Below, piece by piece: positions 50,343 to 63,681 of a stretch of 64,000 nt of DNA. The notes beneath the pieces were generated by a model. It made no database searches. It was not told the origin of the DNA and saw only the letters and a list, made by a program, of their open reading frames with translations. The DNA comes from a virus. A program made the position numbers and the translations under genes. Position 1 is the stretch's first letter, and each line of letters opens with the position of its first letter. The stretch lies in IMG/VR virus record IMGVR_UViG_3300021963_009201, positions 62,001 through 126,000 of that record; one strand, written 5' to 3'.

Positions 50343-51176
50343 TCATACCGTAGAGAAACTATTGATAATTTTTACCATCATCTCTCGGGAGTTCATGCCG
50401 TAGGCATTACCTGCCTCAACGCAAAAATGGTCGAGAGTGTTACGGAATGTCGGATCTACTTCTTCGTTAAATCCTTCTCCATTCATTTGCGCTTTAGGGC
50501 TTTCCCATTTTGTTTCCAATATCTTTAAAAGAGAGAGTTTTTCCCACTCCTTAAAGTAGTACCGAACAGCGTCGGGATGGTTTGATTTAGATGCGCCAGC
50601 TGGGATCCCCCGTTGCATACAGTGGATTACCGTATCTTGGAGGTCTAGGTTCCAGCCTGAATTCCAAACCATATTATAAGCCTGCTGGACGCCTTCTGCT
50701 AGACTCCCGCAGGGCTCATAAATTTCGTGTACAGGATTGCAAAGGTTTGAGTTAAAGTATAGGTTTAAAAGTGGCAGCATAAAAACGCGGTCATCCCAAC
50801 CATACAATGGCTCATTCCTGCAATAAACACGAATTAAAACTGGATTATAGTGCTCATCAAACATCACGTAGTAAGTTGTCCAGGGTATAGGGAGATTAAA
50901 CCCCTCTACAGCGGTCCTACTATCTATAAAGTCTTTACGGGCAAACGCTAACTCTACATATTGTACAGAGGGTGGTCTTTCAAAGACTATGATACGTTGA
51001 TTATCGGAAATCCATCTTACAGCAGGAGGAAGAAAACCAAGATCTTGCCTACCGTGGCTGGTGAGACTACGGAATATATCCCCCGCAGATTTTTCTGGAA
51101 GAGGGATTGTACCGGCACTGTGGTATACACCACTTACTGTATCGGTTGATGAGTTAATTTTAAGTTCAATTTTCAT
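50343..51176 (-). CDS. E2-like protein (Prok-E2_D / PRTRC protein B type)
   Basis: 277 residues. Predicted ubiquitin-conjugating (E2/UBC-like) fold of the PRTRC-B family: FLPPAVRWI and VFERPPSVQYVEL, LPIPWTTYYVM, RVYCRNEPLYGWDDRVF, then LPLLNLYFNSNLC, which places the presumptive acceptor Cys at C146 after the LP-x-x-N strand. The C-terminal 120 residues are helical. It would accept the ubiquitin-like protein from the E1 at 59077-59859, although no biochemical data exist. The neighbour at 51173-52072 is a diverged paralogue, coupled by a four-base overlap. It ends the block before the MerR-like operator. Confidence 0.68.
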   Translation of the reverse strand: MKIELKINSSTDTVSGVYHSAGTIPLPEKSAGDIFRSLTSHGRQDLGFLPPAVRWISDNQRIIVFERPPSVQYVELAFARKDFIDSRTAVEGFNLPIPWTTYYVMFDEHYNPVLIRVYCRNEPLYGWDDRVFMLPLLNLYFNSNLCNPVHEIYEPCGSLAEGVQQAYNMVWNSGWNLDLQDTVIHCMQRGIPAGASKSNHPDAVRYYFKEWEKLSLLKILETKWESPKAQMNGEGFNEEVDPTFRNTLDHFCVEAGNAYGMNSREMMVKIINSFSTV

Positions 51177-52072
51177 TTTAATAAATCCCAGAAAAACTTA
51201 GAGAGCTCTACATGTCCGGCATCTTTAGTTCTGTCCAATAGTGCCGTATTTTTATCAAAGTAGTTTACAAGATCGCCAAATGTGCAGTCTCCAAATTGAT
51301 GAACGTCAAGTGCTCGATAAGAAAGCCCTAGAACTTCTTCCATGGATAGTTTAGCCCAAGAAGCAAAGAATTCATTTGAGTAAATGTGGCAACCCATTTC
51401 CTTTGGGAAGTATTCGGTAATCATGGTTGTAAGATCGTTATTAAAGGTATCAGTCCAAAACCCATTTATCGCATCAAGGACAAACGCAGAAAAATTATTA
51501 TATTTCTCTGGATCATTAATTGGATGGAAACTGCCCCAGCAGATCGAGGCGTCAGGGTAAATGTTGGTTACTGGCAATGCATAAAGCTGGTCCGAAAAAC
51601 TGTTTAGCGGACTAGGCCTGCAGAAAACCTTTACACTAGGTAAATGATCTTTTTCAAATCCACTGAAAAACCAGACAGTCCATGGAATATTTATATTAAA
51701 AGAGAAAGTTTCGGGGTAAGGTCTTTCGCATTCGCAACCATAGTCTGGATCACAGCTATCCCAATGTTCAAAATCTTCATCTTCTAATTCACCTTGAACA
51801 TCTTGATACTTAATAGTGCAGTTGAGTGGCGGACGCTCAACCGCTATGGTGGACATATCTCGGGAAATCCACCTAGTAACCGGCGGTAAGATGTCTGTAG
51901 AATTTTTGGTGTTTTTAAAAAAGTTCTTTGATACGTTAACCATATTGGAATTTGATTGTTCCATAATCCCGTATCTAAAGTCTACACCAAATTCTGATAT
52001 AGTTATTTCTTGTTCTATTTGTGAATTGGGTGTTTCAAGGTTTGATTCACCTGTATCAAGCGCTTGCGACAT
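51173..52072 (-). CDS. E2-like protein (Prok-E2_D / PRTRC protein B type), second copy
   Basis: 299 residues. Same plan as its neighbour: ILPPVTRWIS, VERPPLNCTIKY, NINIPWTVWFF, KVFCRPSPLNSFSDQLYALP, then VTNIYPDASICWG with candidate catalytic Cys C178. An inserted acidic, Cys-containing loop (DSCDPDYGCECERP) lies between strands and may bind a metal. The identity to the first copy is in motifs only, so the duplication is old and specialisation is likely. Both lie about 7 kb downstream of the E1/Ubl genes but in the same transcription direction. Confidence 0.7.
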   Translation of the reverse strand: MSQALDTGESNLETPNSQIEQEITISEFGVDFRYGIMEQSNSNMVNVSKNFFKNTKNSTDILPPVTRWISRDMSTIAVERPPLNCTIKYQDVQGELEDEDFEHWDSCDPDYGCECERPYPETFSFNINIPWTVWFFSGFEKDHLPSVKVFCRPSPLNSFSDQLYALPVTNIYPDASICWGSFHPINDPEKYNNFSAFVLDAINGFWTDTFNNDLTTMITEYFPKEMGCHIYSNEFFASWAKLSMEEVLGLSYRALDVHQFGDCTFGDLVNYFDKNTALLDRTKDAGHVELSKFFWDLLK

Positions 52073-54050: not shown

Positions 54051-54351
54051 CGGTTGCGTACTCCAGTGTTTCTATCATAAGTTTACGCAATTCTTTTACT
54101 TTTCCTGTAAAAATCTTTTGCTTTTCTTCTGTCTCGGTTTCGAGCAGTGACATGAATGCTTCAATGAATACGGCTTGTTCTGCTAGTCCGACTGTTAGTG
54201 TTGCTAGTTGTTGTTCTAGTGTTTCTAGTTTAGCCGTAGAGTTCTGTAGTTCTTCATTGATATATCTTTGGGTGGACTGTAGTGCACCGTCTACTTTTGA
54301 GTAGAAAAAATCTAGGTCCGCTTGAGTTGCGTCTGGCGATTGTTCTTTCAT
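53965..54351 (-). CDS. Acidic coiled-coil protein
   Basis: 128 residues. Long coiled coil (RYINEELQNSTAKLETLEQQ, AVFIEAFMSLLETETEEKQK) and an acidic Pro/Glu-rich end (EDGNTEPEQPMENMAG). Overlaps the genes on both sides, by 86 bases downstream and four upstream. Likely a structural or scaffold partner; not recognised. Confidence 0.5.
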   Translation of the reverse strand: MKEQSPDATQADLDFFYSKVDGALQSTQRYINEELQNSTAKLETLEQQLATLTVGLAEQAVFIEAFMSLLETETEEKQKIFTGKVKELRKLMIETLEYATDVVEDGNTEPEQPMENMAGENSAAPSGE

Positions 54352-54953
54352 AGTGTCTCAAACCATTCTAGGTTGGAATTGGCATATGCGTTTAAGCATA
54401 AGTCAACTCTGTACGAGATTTCTGCTAGTTCAACTCTTGTTACTTTAATTGAATCTGTTGATAGTGGGCTTGACATGTCTGGTAGGAAAGCTCCGGACGA
54501 TGATTTGTTTGCTTTGAAGTGTCCGCATTTGAAGACGAATGATGTTTGGTCGTATTCGTTCTCGCCTTTGCGCCAGTGATGGGATTTGAATATGCGTGAT
54601 ATTGGTTTCCCATCTTGGCCTGTACCGCCACCGTAGAATACTATACCTTCGCTTGTTGGTACTCCAAGTTTTTGGTTGGCTGGGTAGATTACTTCTCCGC
54701 GCCCGCTAGTCACTGTTTGCAGGTATGTTGCAAATAGTATTGAGTCAACAAATGTTTCTGTGTGAGATTTCAGGGATGCGTCTTGCCCTGTTGCGCCAAT
54801 ATCTATACGGAATTTTCCGATTGACAGTATTGGCTTGATTGATAAGAACCCACTCGCCGATGGAGATTTGAACCATTTTTTGTATAGGTCTGGTATTATT
54901 TTCTTATCGTTTGTTTCTACTACTATTTGTTCTTCGTCAAAGTTCAAATCCAT
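54348..54953 (-). CDS. Unknown protein downstream of AAA+ ATPase
   Basis: 201 residues. Beta-rich with conserved-looking segments FLSIKPILSIGKFRIDIGAT, GIVFYGGGTGQDGKPI, SFVFKCGHFKANK. Starts eight bases after the ATPase stop, so it is probably co-translated with it. Might be the substrate or partner of the ATPase. No family recognised. Confidence 0.5.
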   Translation of the reverse strand: MDLNFDEEQIVVETNDKKIIPDLYKKWFKSPSASGFLSIKPILSIGKFRIDIGATGQDASLKSHTETFVDSILFATYLQTVTSGRGEVIYPANQKLGVPTSEGIVFYGGGTGQDGKPISRIFKSHHWRKGENEYDQTSFVFKCGHFKANKSSSGAFLPDMSSPLSTDSIKVTRVELAEISYRVDLCLNAYANSNLEWFETL

Positions 54954-54961
54954 TTATTTCC

Positions 54962-56542
54962 TTAAAAAGATGTCATAATTGGTTGCCGTTTTCCACCAGT
55001 TTTCTTTCCACCCAAGATGATCTCTGCATCTTTTAGTTGGTCGGAAGATGCCCAGTCCCATTCGGCTATTGCGCGTTTGTACATGTCGAGGACTGTTTCG
55101 CGGTGTTTGGTCCACATGCGATTTTGTTGTGTCGGTATTAACGATTCAATATCGTTTTGTTCGACTTTACGTTTGTCTTTTACTGAAATCTTAAATTTCG
55201 CTTCACGAATAAGCGCTTTTATTTCAGCGCCTGTGAATGTATCTGACTGTTCCGCAAGTGTCTGTAGGTTGAATCGTTCTGAGTCTGCGCCAAGGTGGAT
55301 TCCGAAGATGCCAATACGCTCTTCTAATGATGGGAGTCCGACAAACATGATTTTGTCAAACCTGTCAGCGCGTAACATCTCTGGGGAAATGTGTCCAATT
55401 TGATTTGCAGCTGCCATCAGTAGTACATTGTCTGGTAGTTCTTGGATGCCTGTGAGAAATTCACCATGTACACGAGATGTTGTACCGCCATCACCTTGGT
55501 AGTCTCCAACGGAGAGGTCGCGGCCAAGTTCGTCCATCCAGATTACTAGTGGGGCCATGGAGCGAATTTGAGAGAACGCTGCACGCATTCGTTTTTCTGA
55601 CTCGCCGATGAATTTATCCATCATTTGACTAATGCCGAACTTGGCGAGGTCTAGACCAAGTGTTGATGCAGTTGCTTCACATATCGCAGATTTGCCTGTA
55701 CCTGGTATTCCGACAAATAGTACGCGCCGAAGAGGCATAATATCGAGCTCTGCGGCTTCTACGGGGTTGTTCCAGGTCCAGACAACATTGTCGATGAGCT
55801 CTTTGGCGAGGTCAAGACCGCCGATGTCGTTAAGTGCAATTTTGGGGCGACGTATTTCAAGGATGCCGCCCTGTTTTACTCGATCCATTTTCCACTTAGC
55901 GATGAATTCCGGGTCGACAGTTTTACGCTCGTTTATGCTGAGCATAGAGACTTGGATAAACTCTTGCTCGGTAAGACCAAGTCCCGCTTTAACAACCTTG
56001 TTGAGATCAAGATCTTGATTGAATAGTATTTTATCTTTAGAAAAGATTGAAGCAGAAAGGAATGTTAACTCAGATTCGGTCGGGTATCCAGGATGACACA
56101 CAACAAAATGTTTTGTTAACTCAGGTGGCACTTCATCATTGCAGGAAAGCGCAATAAATTGGGTTTCAATATTTTCCAGGTTATTAGATAGCACAGCAGT
56201 GCGGTATTTGCTGTAAGCCGTGAGGAAAAGACCAATAAGTTTTTCTGCTAATTGGTGAGCATTTTCGAAAATAAAACATGCCTTAGCGTCCATTACATGG
56301 TCGATAGCCATACCTAGGTCATGAATTGGCGCCTCTTGTAAGTCGCCTGCTTCTGCACTACCTATCTCGCCAAGAATTGTCTTCCATGTGTTGTCGCGCC
56401 AAACAACTAGACCATTAACAGCGTCGAGCCTGTACACGTCTTTTGTGCTGACGCTACATATTATTTCTGTTATACGCTCAGGTTCTAGGGTGTTTACCCA
56501 GATTAGAGGGGAACCAATGCGGATGTGTTGGATCATTTCCAT
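54962..56542 (-). CDS. AAA+ ATPase, Ycf46-like
   Basis: 526 residues. N-terminal domain (about 1-160) resembles a degenerate P-loop fold (IRIGSPLIWVNTLEPERITE, ACFIFENAHQL). A classic AAA+ core follows: Walker A GIPGTGKSAI (278-287), Walker B PLVIWMDELGRDL, sensor-1 LLMAAANQIG, arginine finger LRADRFDKIMF and a helical lid (TGAEIKALIREAKFKI). This two-part plan is that of Ycf46/FtsH-like remodelling ATPases. Located in the same transcription block as the ubiquitin-like system, it could unfold conjugated substrates, but that link is inferred from position only. Confidence 0.8.
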   Translation of the reverse strand: MEMIQHIRIGSPLIWVNTLEPERITEIICSVSTKDVYRLDAVNGLVVWRDNTWKTILGEIGSAEAGDLQEAPIHDLGMAIDHVMDAKACFIFENAHQLAEKLIGLFLTAYSKYRTAVLSNNLENIETQFIALSCNDEVPPELTKHFVVCHPGYPTESELTFLSASIFSKDKILFNQDLDLNKVVKAGLGLTEQEFIQVSMLSINERKTVDPEFIAKWKMDRVKQGGILEIRRPKIALNDIGGLDLAKELIDNVVWTWNNPVEAAELDIMPLRRVLFVGIPGTGKSAICEATASTLGLDLAKFGISQMMDKFIGESEKRMRAAFSQIRSMAPLVIWMDELGRDLSVGDYQGDGGTTSRVHGEFLTGIQELPDNVLLMAAANQIGHISPEMLRADRFDKIMFVGLPSLEERIGIFGIHLGADSERFNLQTLAEQSDTFTGAEIKALIREAKFKISVKDKRKVEQNDIESLIPTQQNRMWTKHRETVLDMYKRAIAEWDWASSDQLKDAEIILGGKKTGGKRQPIMTSF

Positions 56543-57711: not shown

Positions 57712-58755
57712 TTATTGTATATTCTGATTATCGTAAAAGTTAGAGTTTGCGTTATTCAAAAGGCGTGTAAGTTCAGACAACGAATATTTTATCCATTCTT
57801 TTGGATTATTATTCGGAGTCAAACTAAACCAGCATGATTCCATTGGTGTAGATGTCGAATTGCCGCGATAGTGAACTACGCCTTTTGGAATAACGGCCAT
57901 ATTATTTTGCAGGTGCGTCTTAACTAGACACGACCAACTCATCCAAGCGCTATGTAATAGATCCCTATTACTGTATAGCAAATAGTGTCTGAATTCGTCG
58001 TAGGTAAGACAACCTATATCATACAAGTCTAAAAGATTTTCTGCAACTAAATTCCAGTATAGTTGTTTGGAGCTCCAGTTATCTCTAAAAGACATTGCAG
58101 TATTTGTAAACCTAATCCAACTACCCGAATGCTTTAGTCTGTCTTTTGTTGATAGTATAATTTCTATAGTTTCTTCGCCAAAGATAGACATAAGATCGGC
58201 GTGGATATAGCTTACGGAGCCACTTGCGGAAGATCGAATAGCATCTGTAAGGTTGCCATTCCATGTTTTTGCTTGTGGCCATTTTCTCTCAATTTGTTCA
58301 AAAGTAGAAACATTTTTTTCTACTAAAAACAAACGAGAGTAATCGATAGAAAAGTTTTCTATCAATTCTTGAGGTTCAACGGATAACTCGGGTAAGAGTA
58401 TACAATATCCGGAACTAAGATCTACATCTATTGATTTTTTTTCTTGAAGTGAGATCTGTCTTTTTATGGAGACATTATAGGAAGACTCTTCAATGAAGTC
58501 AATAGGTACGGAAATGCCTAAAAGGTCTAGACCTTTTCGTGTGGGCACCCATATATCTGCCCTTCTTCCCCTTTTACTTCTGGGGTGCAGGTCTTGCTTT
58601 CTTTTTATATATCTATTAGAGAGCAGTTCTATTCTTGAAGGCAGAAATTCGTGTTGAGTAACTAGTTTTGCGCTTCTTAATTCTGTAGAAGTAACTGCTT
58701 TATTTGACGCAATAAACCTAAGGAGTTTTTTTGCGCTAACGGAAATTTTATCCAC
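57712..58755 (-). CDS. Winged-helix protein with unknown C-terminal domain
   Basis: 347 residues, GTG 58755 with GAGG five bases upstream. Residues 1-90 look like a winged helix (KLLRFIASNKAVTSTELRSA, RRADIWVPTRKGLDLLG). The remainder has alternating strands and helices (VSYIHADLMSIFGEETIEII) with an SAM- or nucleotide-binding-like rhythm, but no signature. It follows the Ubl gene after a hairpin and precedes the HTH gene. May regulate the conjugation operon or phage transcription. Not recognised. Confidence 0.55.
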   Translation of the reverse strand: MDKISVSAKKLLRFIASNKAVTSTELRSAKLVTQHEFLPSRIELLSNRYIKRKQDLHPRSKRGRRADIWVPTRKGLDLLGISVPIDFIEESSYNVSIKRQISLQEKKSIDVDLSSGYCILLPELSVEPQELIENFSIDYSRLFLVEKNVSTFEQIERKWPQAKTWNGNLTDAIRSSASGSVSYIHADLMSIFGEETIEIILSTKDRLKHSGSWIRFTNTAMSFRDNWSSKQLYWNLVAENLLDLYDIGCLTYDEFRHYLLYSNRDLLHSAWMSWSCLVKTHLQNNMAVIPKGVVHYRGNSTSTPMESCWFSLTPNNNPKEWIKYSLSELTRLLNNANSNFYDNQNIQ

Positions 58756-58773
58756 ATATGCCTCTTGTTTCTC

Positions 58774-58814
58774 CTCTGCGGCAGAGAGCTTTTTGATCGC
58801 CCCCTGCCGCAGAG
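58774..58814 (-). terminator. Perfect 11-bp hairpin closing the ubiquitin-like gene set
   Basis: CTCTGCGGCAG (58774-58784) and CTGCCGCAGAG (58804-58814), loop 19 bases, directly after the Ubl gene stop at 58831 and before the GTG at 58755. On the minus strand the 3' arm runs into GAGGAGAAAC, so the stem may also restrict ribosome access. No U tract. Confidence 0.55.
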
Positions 58815-58830
58815 AAAACTAATGTGACTA

Positions 58831-59076
58831 TTAGCCCTTTTCGCCAGCGCGACGATGGAACTCAATGTTGTCACCAGACTGGATGACATAGTTGTCGTCC
58901 AGTTTTTCCTTACCCTTGTAAGCGTTTGCGTCGCCTGGGATGCCCCACATCGACCCAAACTGCTGACGAAGTTCAGAAACGCTCTTACCTACGTGATTAC
59001 CGGGATTGTTGTAAACACCGTAGCGGATCTGTGCTGAGCCACCGCTCTGCGATCCTGGGGATGATGCTTGCTGCAT
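58831..59076 (-). CDS. Ubiquitin-like (beta-grasp) modifier protein, PRTRC protein C-like
   Basis: 81 residues. Ser/Gly-rich N-terminus (QASSPGSQSGGSAQI), then a compact domain with RYGVYNNPGNHVGKSVSELR and the end DNYVIQSGDNIEFHRRAGEKG. A last strand followed by a short Arg-containing tail and terminal Gly is how MoaD/ThiS/ubiquitin-like modifiers end, and the ending F-x-x-x-A-G-x-K-G recalls PRTRC protein C. Start codon directly adjoins the E1 stop (no gap); the Shine-Dalgarno lies in the last E1 codons, so modifier and E1 are tightly co-translated. The Gly is already C-terminal, so no maturation cut is needed. Confidence 0.72.
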   Translation of the reverse strand: MQQASSPGSQSGGSAQIRYGVYNNPGNHVGKSVSELRQQFGSMWGIPGDANAYKGKEKLDDNYVIQSGDNIEFHRRAGEKG

Positions 59077-59859
59077 TTATGCTCCTTGGTATACTAATTC
59101 GTTAACGTTAACGCTTCGGTCAAAACTCTGGGCTAACCCGGCTTCTAAGTCAAAGAAATATTCACAATTAGAAGCCGGATCATTACCTTCAACAATGACC
59201 ATATTAAACCGTGCCAGCAATGCTGCTGTTACGGCCATATTCGTGGCAAGAAGCTGCGTCCCTCCTTCGAGTTCAGCCCTCTCTTGACACGAAAGTTCAC
59301 CAGGGTTACGGTCAGGAGGATTTACGTACTCCTCATGCCAAACCGCAGGGTGATCTACCAGCTCAATACCATCACGCTTAGCGTAGTGGTACGTAGAGCC
59401 AAAGTACTTTTCATCATTTCCGCCCAAAAATACGTCGACATTATTAATTTTAGAGGCCGCATCTATTAGCTGTTTCCTTGCTTTGAAGTTATCAACTACA
59501 GCAAAAATGATATCTTTTTCGACAATTAAGTCAGAAGCAGCTATTTTTCCTGCCGGCTTAGAGCCATCTGCTTCCTTGTCATCATCTTTTGCCCCCTCAA
59601 CTTTATCGACTACCCAATATGGCATAGGGATTATAAACGTTTTGTCAAACTGGGGGACAAGTTCTGAAGCGAGAACTTCAGCTTTATTGCCTACGCCATT
59701 AAAAAACTGACGTTGCTTATTCTTTGCTTCGAAGTTGTCACCATCAACTATGACTAGCGCTGACCCTGGCATTCTCCATTCTAGAGTCATAGCGATAGAC
59801 CTAGAAAGCAGGGAGCCAATACCGCCTGCGCCAACGATAATTACTCTGCGCTCTTCCAT
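59077..59859 (-). CDS. E1-like ThiF/MoeB-family adenylating enzyme
   Basis: 260 residues. Rossmann-type ATP site GAGGIG (10-15), then LVIVDGDNFEAKNKQRQFF with the D-x(n)-N-x-x-R-Q motif typical of E1/ThiF enzymes, and IIFAVVDNFKARK (second acidic motif). ELSCQERAELEGGTQ presents Cys C191 in the position of the E1 catalytic or crossover cysteine; TNMAVTAALL is the conserved Asn/Ala helix. It would adenylate the C-terminal Gly of the Ubl encoded next to it and form a thioester. An acidic 20-residue loop (DDDKEADGSKPAG) is inserted after residue 90. Overlaps the zinc-protein gene by one base. Confidence 0.88.
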   Translation of the reverse strand: MEERRVIIVGAGGIGSLLSRSIAMTLEWRMPGSALVIVDGDNFEAKNKQRQFFNGVGNKAEVLASELVPQFDKTFIIPMPYWVVDKVEGAKDDDKEADGSKPAGKIAASDLIVEKDIIFAVVDNFKARKQLIDAASKINNVDVFLGGNDEKYFGSTYHYAKRDGIELVDHPAVWHEEYVNPPDRNPGELSCQERAELEGGTQLLATNMAVTAALLARFNMVIVEGNDPASNCEYFFDLEAGLAQSFDRSVNVNELVYQGA

Positions 59860-60431
59860 TAAAACTCCTCGTAATTTATGTGAATATAGTCATTTGTTGC
59901 TGCTGACGACAAACTTTGAATGACTAATTCATCTTGGTAATAATCTTCACATACTGTAATACCTGCACTGATTTTAGGGTTCTTTATGTAATGAATTACA
60001 AAATTACGCAAGGGTTTGCAGTATTCAGTGTATTGGTACGAGCATGTAAAGCAGTCATTGGAAAATGAGTCTTGATACACGTTTTCCCAAATATCTTGAG
60101 GGACTTCTTCTGTATCATCCCAGCTCACTGGGTATGAACATGTGCAATCCATCATAGACTCTTCGCAGCAAATCATTAAAGGATCACTTGATGCGTAAAA
60201 GTCTTTAATCTGTTCTATAACAACTGTTGGTGCAGTAGCAACAAAAAGATCCCAGTCTTCTTCAGTAAAACCAACGCCACACGATTCGCATGAGTGTTCG
60301 TTAAATTCGACTAGATCTTTGCAGTTGGGATTCAAACATTCAACTAGTAGAGCACTCTCGTTATGGGAGCTTGATGCTATATCTATATTGCAGTAGGGAC
60401 AATTGGGAAGATCTTCTTCCATTTCACTCAA
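59859..60431 (-). CDS. Cys-rich zinc-finger protein of the conjugation operon
   Basis: 190 residues, acidic. Zinc knuckles: NCPYCNIDI and VECLNPNCKDL, then CESCGVGF, followed by a second region with ICCEESMMDCTCSY and FSNDCFTCSYQYTEYC. Thus two or three treble-clef or ribbon modules are likely. Co-translated with E1 (TAATG). Such proteins next to E1/E2 genes are candidate E3-like adaptors or substrates. Not assigned to a family. Confidence 0.62.
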   Translation of the reverse strand: MSEMEEDLPNCPYCNIDIASSSHNESALLVECLNPNCKDLVEFNEHSCESCGVGFTEEDWDLFVATAPTVVIEQIKDFYASSDPLMICCEESMMDCTCSYPVSWDDTEEVPQDIWENVYQDSFSNDCFTCSYQYTEYCKPLRNFVIHYIKNPKISAGITVCEDYYQDELVIQSLSSAATNDYIHINYEEF

Positions 60432-60481
60432 ATAGGAGTAACACTCAAGGCAGTAGCCGTAGTGCTCTTTATTTGAGTGAT

Positions 60482-61753
60482 TCAGCCTTTTCCCAGCGCA
60501 TCACCGACTTTATCTGCTGCGCAGTAAAGTTCGAGTTTATCTTGAGAGTTGTTTTTGGTCCATAAGTATATTGGTTTTTGAACGCTTCGTTCTATGTCGA
60601 TGTCGTTGGAAAACAGCCCCATTGCTTTGCGGTGTGCTACTACATTGGGTACAGTTTCGTTATCGAACATAATATACTGATGACAGGACAGGCATCGACG
60701 CTTATCTTTGTCTACTTTGACAAACTTCACGGAACAAAACGGACAATGTGTATCGTTTTCGCTGATGCAGGCGATAATAATATTATCTTTGATAGGGGGA
60801 AAATCTTCAGGAAGCGTAACTTCTTTAGCTTGAGGTACAGTGCTGTAGCCTGTAGTTGAAGTTCCACCCGCACCGTACCCGTAGGAATAGTCGGTATAAC
60901 CGTATGAGCCAACGCCAGTTTTTCCGTTAGCTGTAGGTGTGTATACTTTCTTGGAAACTTTACCCATCCATACATCAATATCTGGCGAAGGGTCAGATTT
61001 TGGGAATGAATCAAATACCTGCCCTGGGTCAAGAGAAAATACTCCACCAGGAGTTTGTAACTCAATATGGTATTCTGTAGCATTATTGTTAATATTCTTC
61101 CGCCAACCATAGGTTATATGAATACCCGGAAAATCTGCCTGATCTTTATGGTCAGTGCCGGAAGCAAATGCTGGCATGTTTGGGTGGCTGTGAGCGGAGC
61201 CGACTAGGTAGACATGTTCCGGCTTCTCTTTAGCTATAGACTCGTGGTCATAAGCACAGTCAGCCGCCGTGTTTGTTTGGTCGGGAACTAAAACTCCCCA
61301 TCCGTCGCCTTCGTTTTCGAGACCAAAAAAGTTTGGATCATAAGTAAGGAGTACTATCGACTCGGTGCCGTGCTTGTCTTCGACAGCCCTAAAGAAATCG
61401 TCCATTTTTTGAACCATTTCATAAGGAATTCTAGGAAGCGTATACTCTGCGCTAGTAGAAAGAGTTTCCAAGTTAAGTTCTTGTTCTGTTGCTACAGTAA
61501 CAGAACGGGAAATAATAGTGGAGACAACTTTGAAAATTGTCGGCCTTGTACTAGTCTTGGTCGTCTTATTAGTGTCTGTATAGCTATATTCTTCTACCGT
61601 CATTAAGTAGTAGAAGTTATAGCCATGGGCTTCAATATGTTGGCAAATATCATCTACATTTCCAACGAAGCATGGCATTCCATTTGGTAGGTCAAAATAA
61701 GTTAATTCTTCCAGCGGAATTAACTCAAACTTATCTTCTGATACTTCTGTCAT
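60482..61753 (-). CDS. JAB/JAMM-domain isopeptidase with zinc ribbon
   Basis: 423 residues. The JAMM motif is intact: HSH (188-190), P-N-M-P-A-F-A (x7), S198-x-x-D201, with E131 (ESIVLLTYDP) a candidate for the remote Glu. It would hydrolyse Ubl-protein isopeptide bonds. The N-terminal 110 residues form a separate alpha/beta domain (PLEELTYFDLPNGMPCFVGN). A linker rich in Gly/Tyr (GTSTTGYS) leads to a C-terminal zinc ribbon HCPFCSVKF...RRCLSCHQY (about 330-365). Lies between the zinc protein and the E2-zinc fusion. PRTRC protein A is a comparable JAB-containing neighbour of ThiF. Confidence 0.85.
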   Translation of the reverse strand: MTEVSEDKFELIPLEELTYFDLPNGMPCFVGNVDDICQHIEAHGYNFYYLMTVEEYSYTDTNKTTKTSTRPTIFKVVSTIISRSVTVATEQELNLETLSTSAEYTLPRIPYEMVQKMDDFFRAVEDKHGTESIVLLTYDPNFFGLENEGDGWGVLVPDQTNTAADCAYDHESIAKEKPEHVYLVGSAHSHPNMPAFASGTDHKDQADFPGIHITYGWRKNINNNATEYHIELQTPGGVFSLDPGQVFDSFPKSDPSPDIDVWMGKVSKKVYTPTANGKTGVGSYGYTDYSYGYGAGGTSTTGYSTVPQAKEVTLPEDFPPIKDNIIIACISENDTHCPFCSVKFVKVDKDKRRCLSCHQYIMFDNETVPNVVAHRKAMGLFSNDIDIERSVQKPIYLWTKNNSQDKLELYCAADKVGDALGKG

Positions 61754-61776
61754 TACAGGTCCTTGTTGAGGTTAGT

Positions 61777-63279
61777 TTAAGAAAGTACTAGTTTTGCGTA
61801 GCAGCTTTTGCAAACTGGCTGCGAATAGTTATCGTCTAAATATTGAATATTTTCTTTATAAACAAGAGATTTACATTGGCAAATAGAGTATTCTGTTACG
61901 CAGTCTGAGCAAAGTTTAGCTAAAGACATTTCCTGGGTAAAAGGATCAAGGTGTTCAATCAGGGCAAGATCCTCGACTGCTGTAGGGTATGAACAGTTAG
62001 AGCAATGCTCAACTTTGGTACAAGCTACGCACATATCGTTACTGATTAACGATTCTTCATCTTCATGAAAACTATAACATTTCTGACACTGAAACAAAGT
62101 CACACATGAAGAGCAGTGAAAGTTTTCATTGTAAAAAGCCATGTCGGCATAATGCTTATGAGTGTCACATGAAACGCAAATAGCTAATTTTTCTTCTGCG
62201 CACCAAGTGCATGCATAACCGTTTTCAAAGCTTATAACATTTGAAGACCCATAGATTTCTCCGCAAAGTTTGCACGACGTAATGTGATCAGAAAACGGTA
62301 TAAGCGGCTTATGTTCTTCTGCTGTTTTTATCGTTTTGCTTTCAGCACTCCTAAAAGCGCTTTGAATCTTAGTCAATACATCTTTATTTGACGGAGGCTC
62401 AAGATCTTCTCGAATAAACTTTTGATAATTTTTTGGAGTATTTTGATCTCCGTAATATGCGCGGTACTTGCCATCTACCGCCATTCTCAATGTGTAGTAA
62501 GAACCATCTTCACCATCGTAGTGCTTCGTCTGATCATCAATATCTTTTACAATGACGGGAATCCAAAGGCTACCATCTAGGGTCCAATCAGCGCCTTCTT
62601 GGGATGATTTACCTTCCCAAGCCTCAGGGTCCCAGAGGTAATTATATTCGATATTGTTTTCATATTTCTCGGCGTAAAAACGTGGGCCATCTGTTTCTTT
62701 CATGTTGGCGTCATTATATGCTTCAGTGCCGCCAGCGCGCTCAACGAGATTTGCTATTTTTTGACCAAGGTTCAAGTGTGATATAGATGGTTTATTGTGA
62801 TAAAGACATATCCAGCCGACACCATTACCGTTGCCATAGCCTTTGCAATTTAAGTTTGGCAAGTTCACATGAAATAAAACTTGATCAAGACTAGTTATAG
62901 GTGTCGGAGAGTAAAAGTGTCTAGCACCAAAAAATTCATTATCAACAAAATCGCCAATTACAATACGATACGGCATTGCAAGGTCGTAGTGGACGGCTTC
63001 GGTATCCCCTTCGGAACCGCCCCATATGACCCTATATACGCCTGGAGTATGCTGAAATACTACCTGACAATGCCCAAGGGCTTGACGGATCATTAACGTG
63101 CCCGATCCGTCAAGCGGCAATATCCCGGTATCAAAAAATGCTATATCACTTATTGACTTAAAAACAGCATTCAACTCTTTTGTTTCAGTATTTTCTATAT
63201 TACCGACAACAATAGAATTTTTAACTCCCTGATCACTTAATTCAATAAAGGAACCTATTTTTGGGTCAACATATGACAT
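61777..63279 (-). CDS. E2-like domain with long C-terminal zinc-finger array
   Basis: 500 residues. N-terminal E2-like part: FFDTGILPLDGSG, CQVVFQHTPGVYRVIW, AMPYRIVIGDF, ARHFYSPTPITSLDQVLFHV then NLPNLN and GVGWICLYHN, which parallels PRTRC-B/Prok-E2_D proteins, with C158 the presumptive acceptor. After a region of about 150 residues come at least seven CxxC pairs (TSCKLCGEI, ACTWCAEEK, CVSCDTHKH, HCSSCVTL, QCQKCYSF, CVACTKVEHCSNC, LCSDCVTE, SICQCKS, VCKSCYAK) at about 328-498, as in RING/LIM-type treble clefs. A fused E2-E3-like enzyme is the simplest reading. Gene heads the E2-JAB-zinc-E1-Ubl set. Confidence 0.72.
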   Translation of the reverse strand: MSYVDPKIGSFIELSDQGVKNSIVVGNIENTETKELNAVFKSISDIAFFDTGILPLDGSGTLMIRQALGHCQVVFQHTPGVYRVIWGGSEGDTEAVHYDLAMPYRIVIGDFVDNEFFGARHFYSPTPITSLDQVLFHVNLPNLNCKGYGNGNGVGWICLYHNKPSISHLNLGQKIANLVERAGGTEAYNDANMKETDGPRFYAEKYENNIEYNYLWDPEAWEGKSSQEGADWTLDGSLWIPVIVKDIDDQTKHYDGEDGSYYTLRMAVDGKYRAYYGDQNTPKNYQKFIREDLEPPSNKDVLTKIQSAFRSAESKTIKTAEEHKPLIPFSDHITSCKLCGEIYGSSNVISFENGYACTWCAEEKLAICVSCDTHKHYADMAFYNENFHCSSCVTLFQCQKCYSFHEDEESLISNDMCVACTKVEHCSNCSYPTAVEDLALIEHLDPFTQEMSLAKLCSDCVTEYSICQCKSLVYKENIQYLDDNYSQPVCKSCYAKLVLS

Positions 63280-63282
63280 AAT

Positions 63283-63681
63283 TTAACTTTCGTTTAAATT
63301 CAAAAACTTATTTAAGGCTTCATCAATTTCTTCATCAAAGTCGCCAAAAGCCCAAGCTAACCAGCTCGGGTCAGATTCGGCTAGATCAAGAATTTCCTTG
63401 CGTTTCCTTAAAACGTCTAATGGCTCAAGAAGTTCGGCAACCCGGCTTAAACCTTTAGATAAACCAATAAGCTCTTCCTTGTTGTGGCTAATGTGCATAA
63501 TTGGAACAATTATTGGATTGCCATCTAAGGTAAACTTATTAACTATGTTATCAATTCGGGTTTCCAGCGCCTCGATTTGAAGATCTATTTCTTTTTTTGC
63601 GAAAGAAGCGCTGGAAGCGTTAAAGCGGAAAGTGTCAATAGGTTTTGACGCTTTATTATTTTCAAGTGGTTGATGTGTCAA
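63283..63681 (-). CDS. Unknown helical protein
   Basis: 132 residues. Coiled-coil-like N-terminal half (AKKEIDLQIEALETRIDNIV) and an acidic helical end (DLAESDPSWLAWAFGDFDEE). It precedes the E2-zinc gene by three bases and overlaps its upstream neighbour by 20, so it belongs to the same unit. Not recognised. Confidence 0.5.
   Translation of the reverse strand: MTHQPLENNKASKPIDTFRFNASSASFAKKEIDLQIEALETRIDNIVNKFTLDGNPIIVPIMHISHNKEELIGLSKGLSRVAELLEPLDVLRKRKEILDLAESDPSWLAWAFGDFDEEIDEALNKFLNLNES

Follow-up and report, generated by a model that had tools for sequence, protein, structure and literature searches.

A block of minus-strand genes within a 64,000-nucleotide stretch of viral DNA (bases 62001-126000 of the 190,033-base IMG/VR virus record IMGVR_UViG_3300021963_009201; hereafter the window) very likely encodes a phage system for reversible tagging of proteins with a ubiquitin-like protein (Ubl). 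Five open reading frames (ORFs), all on the minus strand, were found where an earlier prediction from the letters alone had placed an E2-like protein, a JAB isopeptidase, a Cys-rich zinc protein (Zn), an E1-like enzyme and an 81-residue Ubl. The ORFs and their motifs were confirmed, except that Zn probably belongs to JAB as an extension instead of constituting a gene of its own. The broader claim of that original prediction, that a complete Ubl, E1, E2 and JAB set resides within a phage, is strongly supported by motifs, by folds and by 44 other viral loci.

These 44 IMG/VR loci carry the same block, and its order was kept wherever the contig reached: G130, the E2-like gene with its zinc tail (E2a), JAB, Zn, E1, Ubl, an AAA+ ATPase, G200 and G123. 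The IMG/VR scans identified two close loci (L002 = L014 and L003 = L015) and about 40 distant ones. Identity between the window and these two close relatives was 89 and 81% for Ubl, 88 and 86% for E1, about 60% for JAB and 54% for E2a, and the ratio of nonsynonymous to synonymous substitution (dN/dS) of Ubl was 0.04-0.06, with synonymous sites near saturation. Conservation within the block is highest in Ubl and E1, and both are under strong purifying selection. Because the same block recurs in 44 other viral loci and the dN/dS of Ubl is about 0.05, its occurrence lies far above chance. All four contigs longer than 130 kb that carry a relative of the window phage's tail sheath gene also carry Ubl. 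One record of 267,766 bases, IMGVR_UViG_3300042868_009074 (L038 and L052), contains two complete Ubl modules that differ from each other and are separated by about 215 kb; either the record is a co-assembly of two phages or the duplication is real.

The 81-residue protein had been put forward as a beta-grasp candidate with a free C-terminal glycine, and its predicted structure agrees with this proposal. An AlphaFold2 model built from 29 sequences (predicted local distance difference test score, 78.6) has the E-E-H-E-E-E order of a beta-grasp, together with a disordered N-terminal tail of about 12-14 residues. When the model was compared with the PDB using Foldseek, the best matches were a ubiquitin variant, a ubiquitin-like domain, SUMO1, ISG15 and NEDD8 (probability 1.00, E from 6e-4), as well as Caldiarchaeum ubiquitin bound to its Rpn11 homologue. 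All 29 distinct sequences retain the terminal Gly81, which lies in the tail HRR(A/S)GEKG. Predicted fold and conserved glycine together point to a ubiquitin-like protein; in the profile search neither Ubl nor E2a matched a curated model. Two of the distinct sequences (L037 and L046) have two residues after the glycine (GEKG-SL) and would therefore need maturation by a protease, as with ubiquitin precursors. The E1 stop codon and the Ubl ATG abut, as had been noticed: CCAAGGAGCATAAATG.

E1 matched PF00899 above its cut-off (E=1.5e-10; 41.1 bits against 28.1). The GAGGIG, RQ (R50-Q51) and C191 motifs previously read in this protein are present and conserved across 21 relatives, with G10, R50, Q51, K59, D123 and C191 invariant and the A and I of GAGGIG each at 90% or more. 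E1 contains the nucleotide-binding GxGGxG motif and the Arg/Lys/Asp motif that characterize the E1/ThiF superfamily, together with a candidate for the catalytic cysteine, and its closest solved structure by profile is UBA5. JAB fell just below the cut-off of 25 for Prok-JAB (E=9.7e-5; 22.7 bits). Its JAMM/JAB signature, E...HxH-x7-S-x2-D, is complete; the HSH-x7-SxxD portion had been reported as intact, and E131, H188, H190, S198 and D201 are invariant in 21 sequences. The same holds for the four cysteines of a C-terminal zinc ribbon (C337, C340, C354 and C357).

Three E2-like proteins and the proposed tagging cycle

The E2 activity had been assigned to E2a, the gene at 61777-63279, and a search with PF14460 (Prok-E2_D) had been suggested as a check. 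This search gave no match for E2a and sub-threshold matches for the products of two other, adjacent genes, E2b and E2c. E2a does lie inside the predicted interval, whereas these better E2 candidates lie outside it at 50343-52072. Among relatives, PF14460 matched 5 of 13 E2b members (best 2.1e-4) and 7 of 19 E2c members (best 0.014). E2c is related to E2b by phmmer (2e-15) and is present in 15 of 15 large related phage records, and one cysteine is invariant in all 46 aligned E2b/E2c members.

The link of E2a to this group comes from profiles. Comparison by hhalign gave 93.6% for E2a with E2b/c and no direct relationship with PRTRC proteins, and in related phages the E2c profile matched ORFs that correspond to E2a in length and position (E 7e-5 to 5e-4). 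For these two reasons E2a most probably represents a diverged paralogue of the E2s. C145 and C158 of E2a are invariant, the tail of its model resembles LIM domains in the PDB, and Foldseek searches of viral models returned, besides its own family, only unnamed proteins.

Several results weigh against a complete conjugation cascade. None of 30 E2a members matched a Pfam E2 model, and the E2a model matched no ubiquitin-conjugating (UBC) fold in the PDB. The matches of E2b (E=0.0076; 16.4 bits against a cut-off of 25) and E2c to PF14460 are sub-threshold, and both genes are situated about 7 kb from the block, beyond a terminator-like hairpin. Profile comparison of Ubl with PRTRC C reached only 17%. 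As the assignment of E2a as the sole E2 was the least supported, it was rejected. E2b and E2c appear to be better candidates for the transferring enzyme.

From the computed gene content, order, conservation, folds, motifs and frameshift signal we infer the following chemistry. E1 would adenylate Gly81 of Ubl and take Ubl as a thioester on Cys191. Ubl would then be passed to an E2 cysteine, most likely that of E2b or E2c; E2a, which is divergent and zinc-tailed, would act as a third partner of E2-like or ligase-like type. Lysines of target proteins in the infected cell would then receive Ubl. Its removal would fall to the JAB metalloprotease, which in the relatives with GEKG-SL tails would probably mature Ubl as well. 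An alternative that we consider very unlikely is a sulfur-carrier system, in which Ubl and E1, acting as ThiS/MoaD and ThiF, make a thiocarboxylate for thio-modification and JAB releases the carrier. The E1 does match ThiF/MoeB models, the C-terminal glycine is common to ThiS and MoaD, and JAB can accompany sulfur-carrier systems (PMC1779556). However, no rhodanese or sulfur-transfer gene was recognised beside the block, three conserved E2-like proteins with an invariant cysteine are encoded, and the listed Foldseek matches of Ubl are ubiquitin, SUMO and NEDD8, not ThiS or MoaD. Conjugation is the reading that we retain.

A predicted frameshift between JAB and the zinc domain

In every testable distant relative, a single ORF covers JAB and the zinc domain. 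The two are split only in the window lineage (the window, L014 and L015), and in 3 of 3 cases the zinc ORF is in the -1 frame. All three members contain the heptamer GGGAAAA in X_XXY_YYZ phase at or just 5' of the JAB stop codon; in-phase copies number six in 92,726 codons of block genes, and half of them are these sites. A hairpin follows the heptamer after 7, 6 and 8 nt, respectively, within the 5-9 nt expected of a frameshift spacer. Folding of 75 nt gave z-scores of -4.6 for the window hairpin and -6.3 and -2.4 for its homologues. All seven core pairs of the outer stem are kept in the three sequences (CACTCAA/TTGAGTG, CGTTCAA/TTGAACG and CGTTCAA/TTGGACG), with two double compensatory changes. 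By sequence, the conserved heptamer and hairpin are a canonical -1 programmed frameshift signal, with predicted products of 423 and 631 residues. Two points count against this interpretation: covariation could be assessed in only three sequences, and the third hairpin is weaker.

The Cys-rich zinc protein, originally listed as a separate gene, is probably an extension of JAB that is reached by a -1 frameshift. For it to be separate, translation would have to begin at an internal start or, through coupling, at a non-standard codon, with the heptamer incidental. An in-frame ATG upstream in L003 and a CTG that overlaps the JAB stop in the window are compatible with such a start. In the window and L002, two of the three lineage members, no ATG, GTG or TTG precedes the first CxxC of the zinc ORF. 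This finding, the rarity elsewhere of a heptamer that all three members share in phase, the compensatory pairs of the hairpins and the fused ORF of distant relatives make a separate gene quite unlikely. Under the frameshift interpretation, JAB of the window lineage would occur in two forms, one of 423 residues and, following a hairpin-driven -1 slip at G_GGA_AAA, one of 631 residues carrying the zinc tail that is always present in distant relatives. A -1 frameshift at a G_GGA_AAR-type slippery site in lambda tail genes G/GT likewise supplies a phage protein with a C-terminal domain. The frameshift predicted here would extend a de-conjugating protease, not a tail chaperone.

A second arrangement of this kind was seen at L020:4407-6390 (and L021), where the E2a ORF ends after 359 residues (...EEGPF) and is followed by a zinc-rich ORF in the -1 frame. 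A split between E2a and its zinc tail may thus exist in some phages as well.

Related systems, host and possible roles

The original prediction named PRTRC cassettes as known relatives. For the individual enzymes kinship is supported in the case of E1 and JAB and probable for E2b/c: pairwise hhalign without database correction gave 99.2% for E1 with PRTRC ThiF, 97.7% for JAB with PRTRC A and 94.3% for E2b/c with PRTRC B. The block did not qualify as a cassette. Curated NCBIfam cut-offs (TIGR03735-03738) were missed by ThiF (22.6 against 144.75 bits) and A (14.3 against 101.8 bits), the curated B and C models had no match in the block, and ParB and the PRTRC E/F partners had none among the neighbouring ORFs. 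Because the curated models were not reached, we conclude, at the level of sequence, that the block falls outside the PRTRC cassettes, although E1, JAB and E2b/c appear to be distantly related to PRTRC proteins. The plasmid cassettes (for example Cupriavidus pMOL28, L106) likewise bring a Ubl (C), an E2 (B), a JAB (A) and ThiF together in a single operon, share the B-A-ThiF order and have probable homologues of E1, JAB and E2b/c. In contrast, the phage operon is without ParB, E and F, has Ubl last instead of first, is associated with three E2-like proteins, and differs in its zinc extensions, frameshift and viral setting. JAB and ThiF pairs without an annotated Ubl were also observed on Gram-positive plasmids (L107, Rubrobacter marinus; L112, Lysinibacillus), one of them actinobacterial.

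Two isolated phages, Vibrio phage D69 and Salmonella phage Arash, were identified through a match to JAB. Both have JAB, E2_D-like and ThiF genes that resemble those of PRTRC and are annotated as hypothetical or structural proteins; the D69 Ubl is a tandem triple ending in TGTKG. The PRTRC hidden Markov model scores of these phages for A, B and ThiF are partly circular because the sequences are in the seed alignments, while only the NCBIfam values and the match of the D69 Ubl (3e-5) are free of this circularity. These sets differ from the window system in being much closer to PRTRC, in showing no E2a-Zn or frameshift and in having Gram-negative hosts, and their JAB proteins are only 27-29% identical to that of the window phage. 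The clade described here is therefore not the only one with phage-borne Ubl systems. Among 50,697 GenBank phage records, the window had no DNA match and E1, Ubl and E2a had no protein match by tblastn. A scan of bacterial genomes with the E1 alignment was also negative. In the open literature, with most subscription journals and preprints outside the scope of the search, we found no published phage Ubl conjugation system.

The phages with the block form a clade with genomes of ~170-270 kb. WhiB is encoded by the window phage and by 15 of 15 large related records, and among 14 control genomes the WhiB profile matched only Corynebacterium. The presence of WhiB in all 16 records indicates that the clade probably infects actinobacteria. 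The DNA polymerase is DnaE-like, and its best annotated full-length matches are from Streptomyces phages (about 39%). The description of the phage as lytic was partly supported, in that no tyrosine integrase was found in its record, which may be incomplete. The phage also encodes a transfer-messenger RNA (tmRNA) at L098:3796-4188 (G000 about 129,796-130,188) on the minus strand (Rfam RF00023, 98.3 bits). The tag predicted for it, ADEYVCDWDAEMATLLEEEGALV, is long and lacks the -LAA ending that usually signals degradation; a search of 15 related records returned only tRNA-sized or fragmentary matches.

Target and purpose might lie in virion assembly, in counter-defence or in host proteins, as part of a host takeover. 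Ubl-JAB pairs occur in phage tail clusters, as with TAPI (Ubl) and TAPK (JAB) of lambda and T1 (PMC1779556). An equivalent action on virion assembly, as proposed for lambda TAPI/TAPK, would fit a block that is kept wherever testable in the clade, as expected of a core function. However, the lambda and T1 pairs constitute a structural module without E1 or E2, as is true of described tail clusters, and the recognised structural genes of the window phage are on the plus strand elsewhere. We regard this role as fairly unlikely. Similarly, the bacterial Ub-like defences CBASS type II (Cap2/Cap3) and Bil share the E1, E2 and JAB logic of reversible conjugation, and related enzymes are used by host defences (PMC10097602). 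The PADLOC E1-E2 models match the phage E1 at 3e-4, and the phage machinery might interfere with CBASS, Bil or other immunity. These systems are bacterial, not viral, E1 and E2 are fused in the PADLOC CBASS models, and E1 similarity is weak. Against a counter-defence role, a complete conserved cascade exceeds the needs of a decoy, and no defence gene was recognised beside the block. Counter-defence is a fairly unlikely purpose.

A broader proposal, which we hold tentatively and at a little below even chance, is that this actinobacterial phage clade depends on its own Ubl tagging cycle (three E2s, one E1 and one JAB) to remodel the proteome of its host phylum, and that one lineage balances two JAB forms by programmed frameshifting. 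Actinobacteria are known for the Pup system, which is unrelated to ubiquitin-like tagging, and bacterial ubiquitin-like conjugation has been investigated chiefly for its part in host defence. With a complete and strongly conserved set in phages that look lytic, Ubl conjugation would stand on the side of the attacker. The role of prokaryotic ubiquitination during infection becomes testable with this six-protein system, because it is conserved in a phage clade, as far as could be checked, and combines three E2-like proteins with a de-conjugating enzyme under predicted frameshift control.

Feature positions and neighbouring genes

Table 1. Positions of the block and of associated features in the window
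Feature	Position	Strand	Remarks
Ubl	58831..59076	(-)	81 aa; C-terminus ...HRRAGEKG
E1-like (ThiF) adenylyltransferase	59077..59859	(-)	260 aa; candidate catalytic Cys191
Zn ORF, conventional reading	59859-60431	(-)	TTG start at 60431
Zinc extension of JAB, -1 frame	59859..60488	(-)	209 codons; predicted JAB-Zn fusion of 631 aa
Slippery heptamer G_GGA_AAA, JAB frame	60488..60494	(-)	just 5' of JAB stop
Stimulatory hairpin (predicted)	60424..60480	(-)	7 nt after heptamer; 11-pair outer stem
JAB/JAMM isopeptidase	60482..61753	(-)	423 aa; own C-terminal zinc ribbon
E2a, divergent E2-like domain and LIM-like zinc tail	61777..63279	(-)	500 aa
G130, conserved 132-aa gene	63283..63681	(-)	heads block in relatives; upstream of E2a wherever contig reaches
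Strong hairpin directly 3' of Ubl	58763..58822	(-)	minimum free energy -41.7
AAA+ ATPase	54962..56542	(-)	PF00004, 3.8e-25; next conserved gene after Ubl in relatives
E2b, Prok-E2_D-like	51173..52072	(-)	299 aa; candidate catalytic Cys LPVTNIYPDASIC
E2c, E2b paralogue	50343..51176	(-)	277 aa; candidate catalytic Cys145

Transcription of the block appears to stop after Ubl. Mean fold energy of the 100 nt after Ubl was -34.6 (29 loci), compared to about -13 to -20 after other block genes and about -24 after JAB-Zn. A T-run follows the hairpin in 14 of 29 relatives, with none clear in the window. As Ubl appears to be last in the transcript, the AAA+ ATPase gene is a conserved neighbour and not an established member. 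This gene was found in all 44 loci examined for gene order (incomplete in L014). Phages of Aeromonas, Rhizobium, Rhodobacter and Mycobacterium have related ATPases too, with no Ubl, E1, E2 or JAB detected nearby. The candidacy of the ATPase as a dedicated partner was weakened by these phages and by the terminator-like hairpin.

Between Ubl and the ATPase, positions 57712-58755 encode a 347-residue protein that occurs only in the window lineage; it had no family match, and by reading its N-terminal region is winged-helix-like and the remainder methyltransferase-like. The AAA+ ATPase followed by a protein of ~200-230 residues (54348-56542 of the window and L102-L104) recurs in Aeromonas, Rhizobium and Rhodobacter phages, and in Rhizobium phage RHph_I4 this pair is accompanied by DUF1257 and DUF2997 genes.

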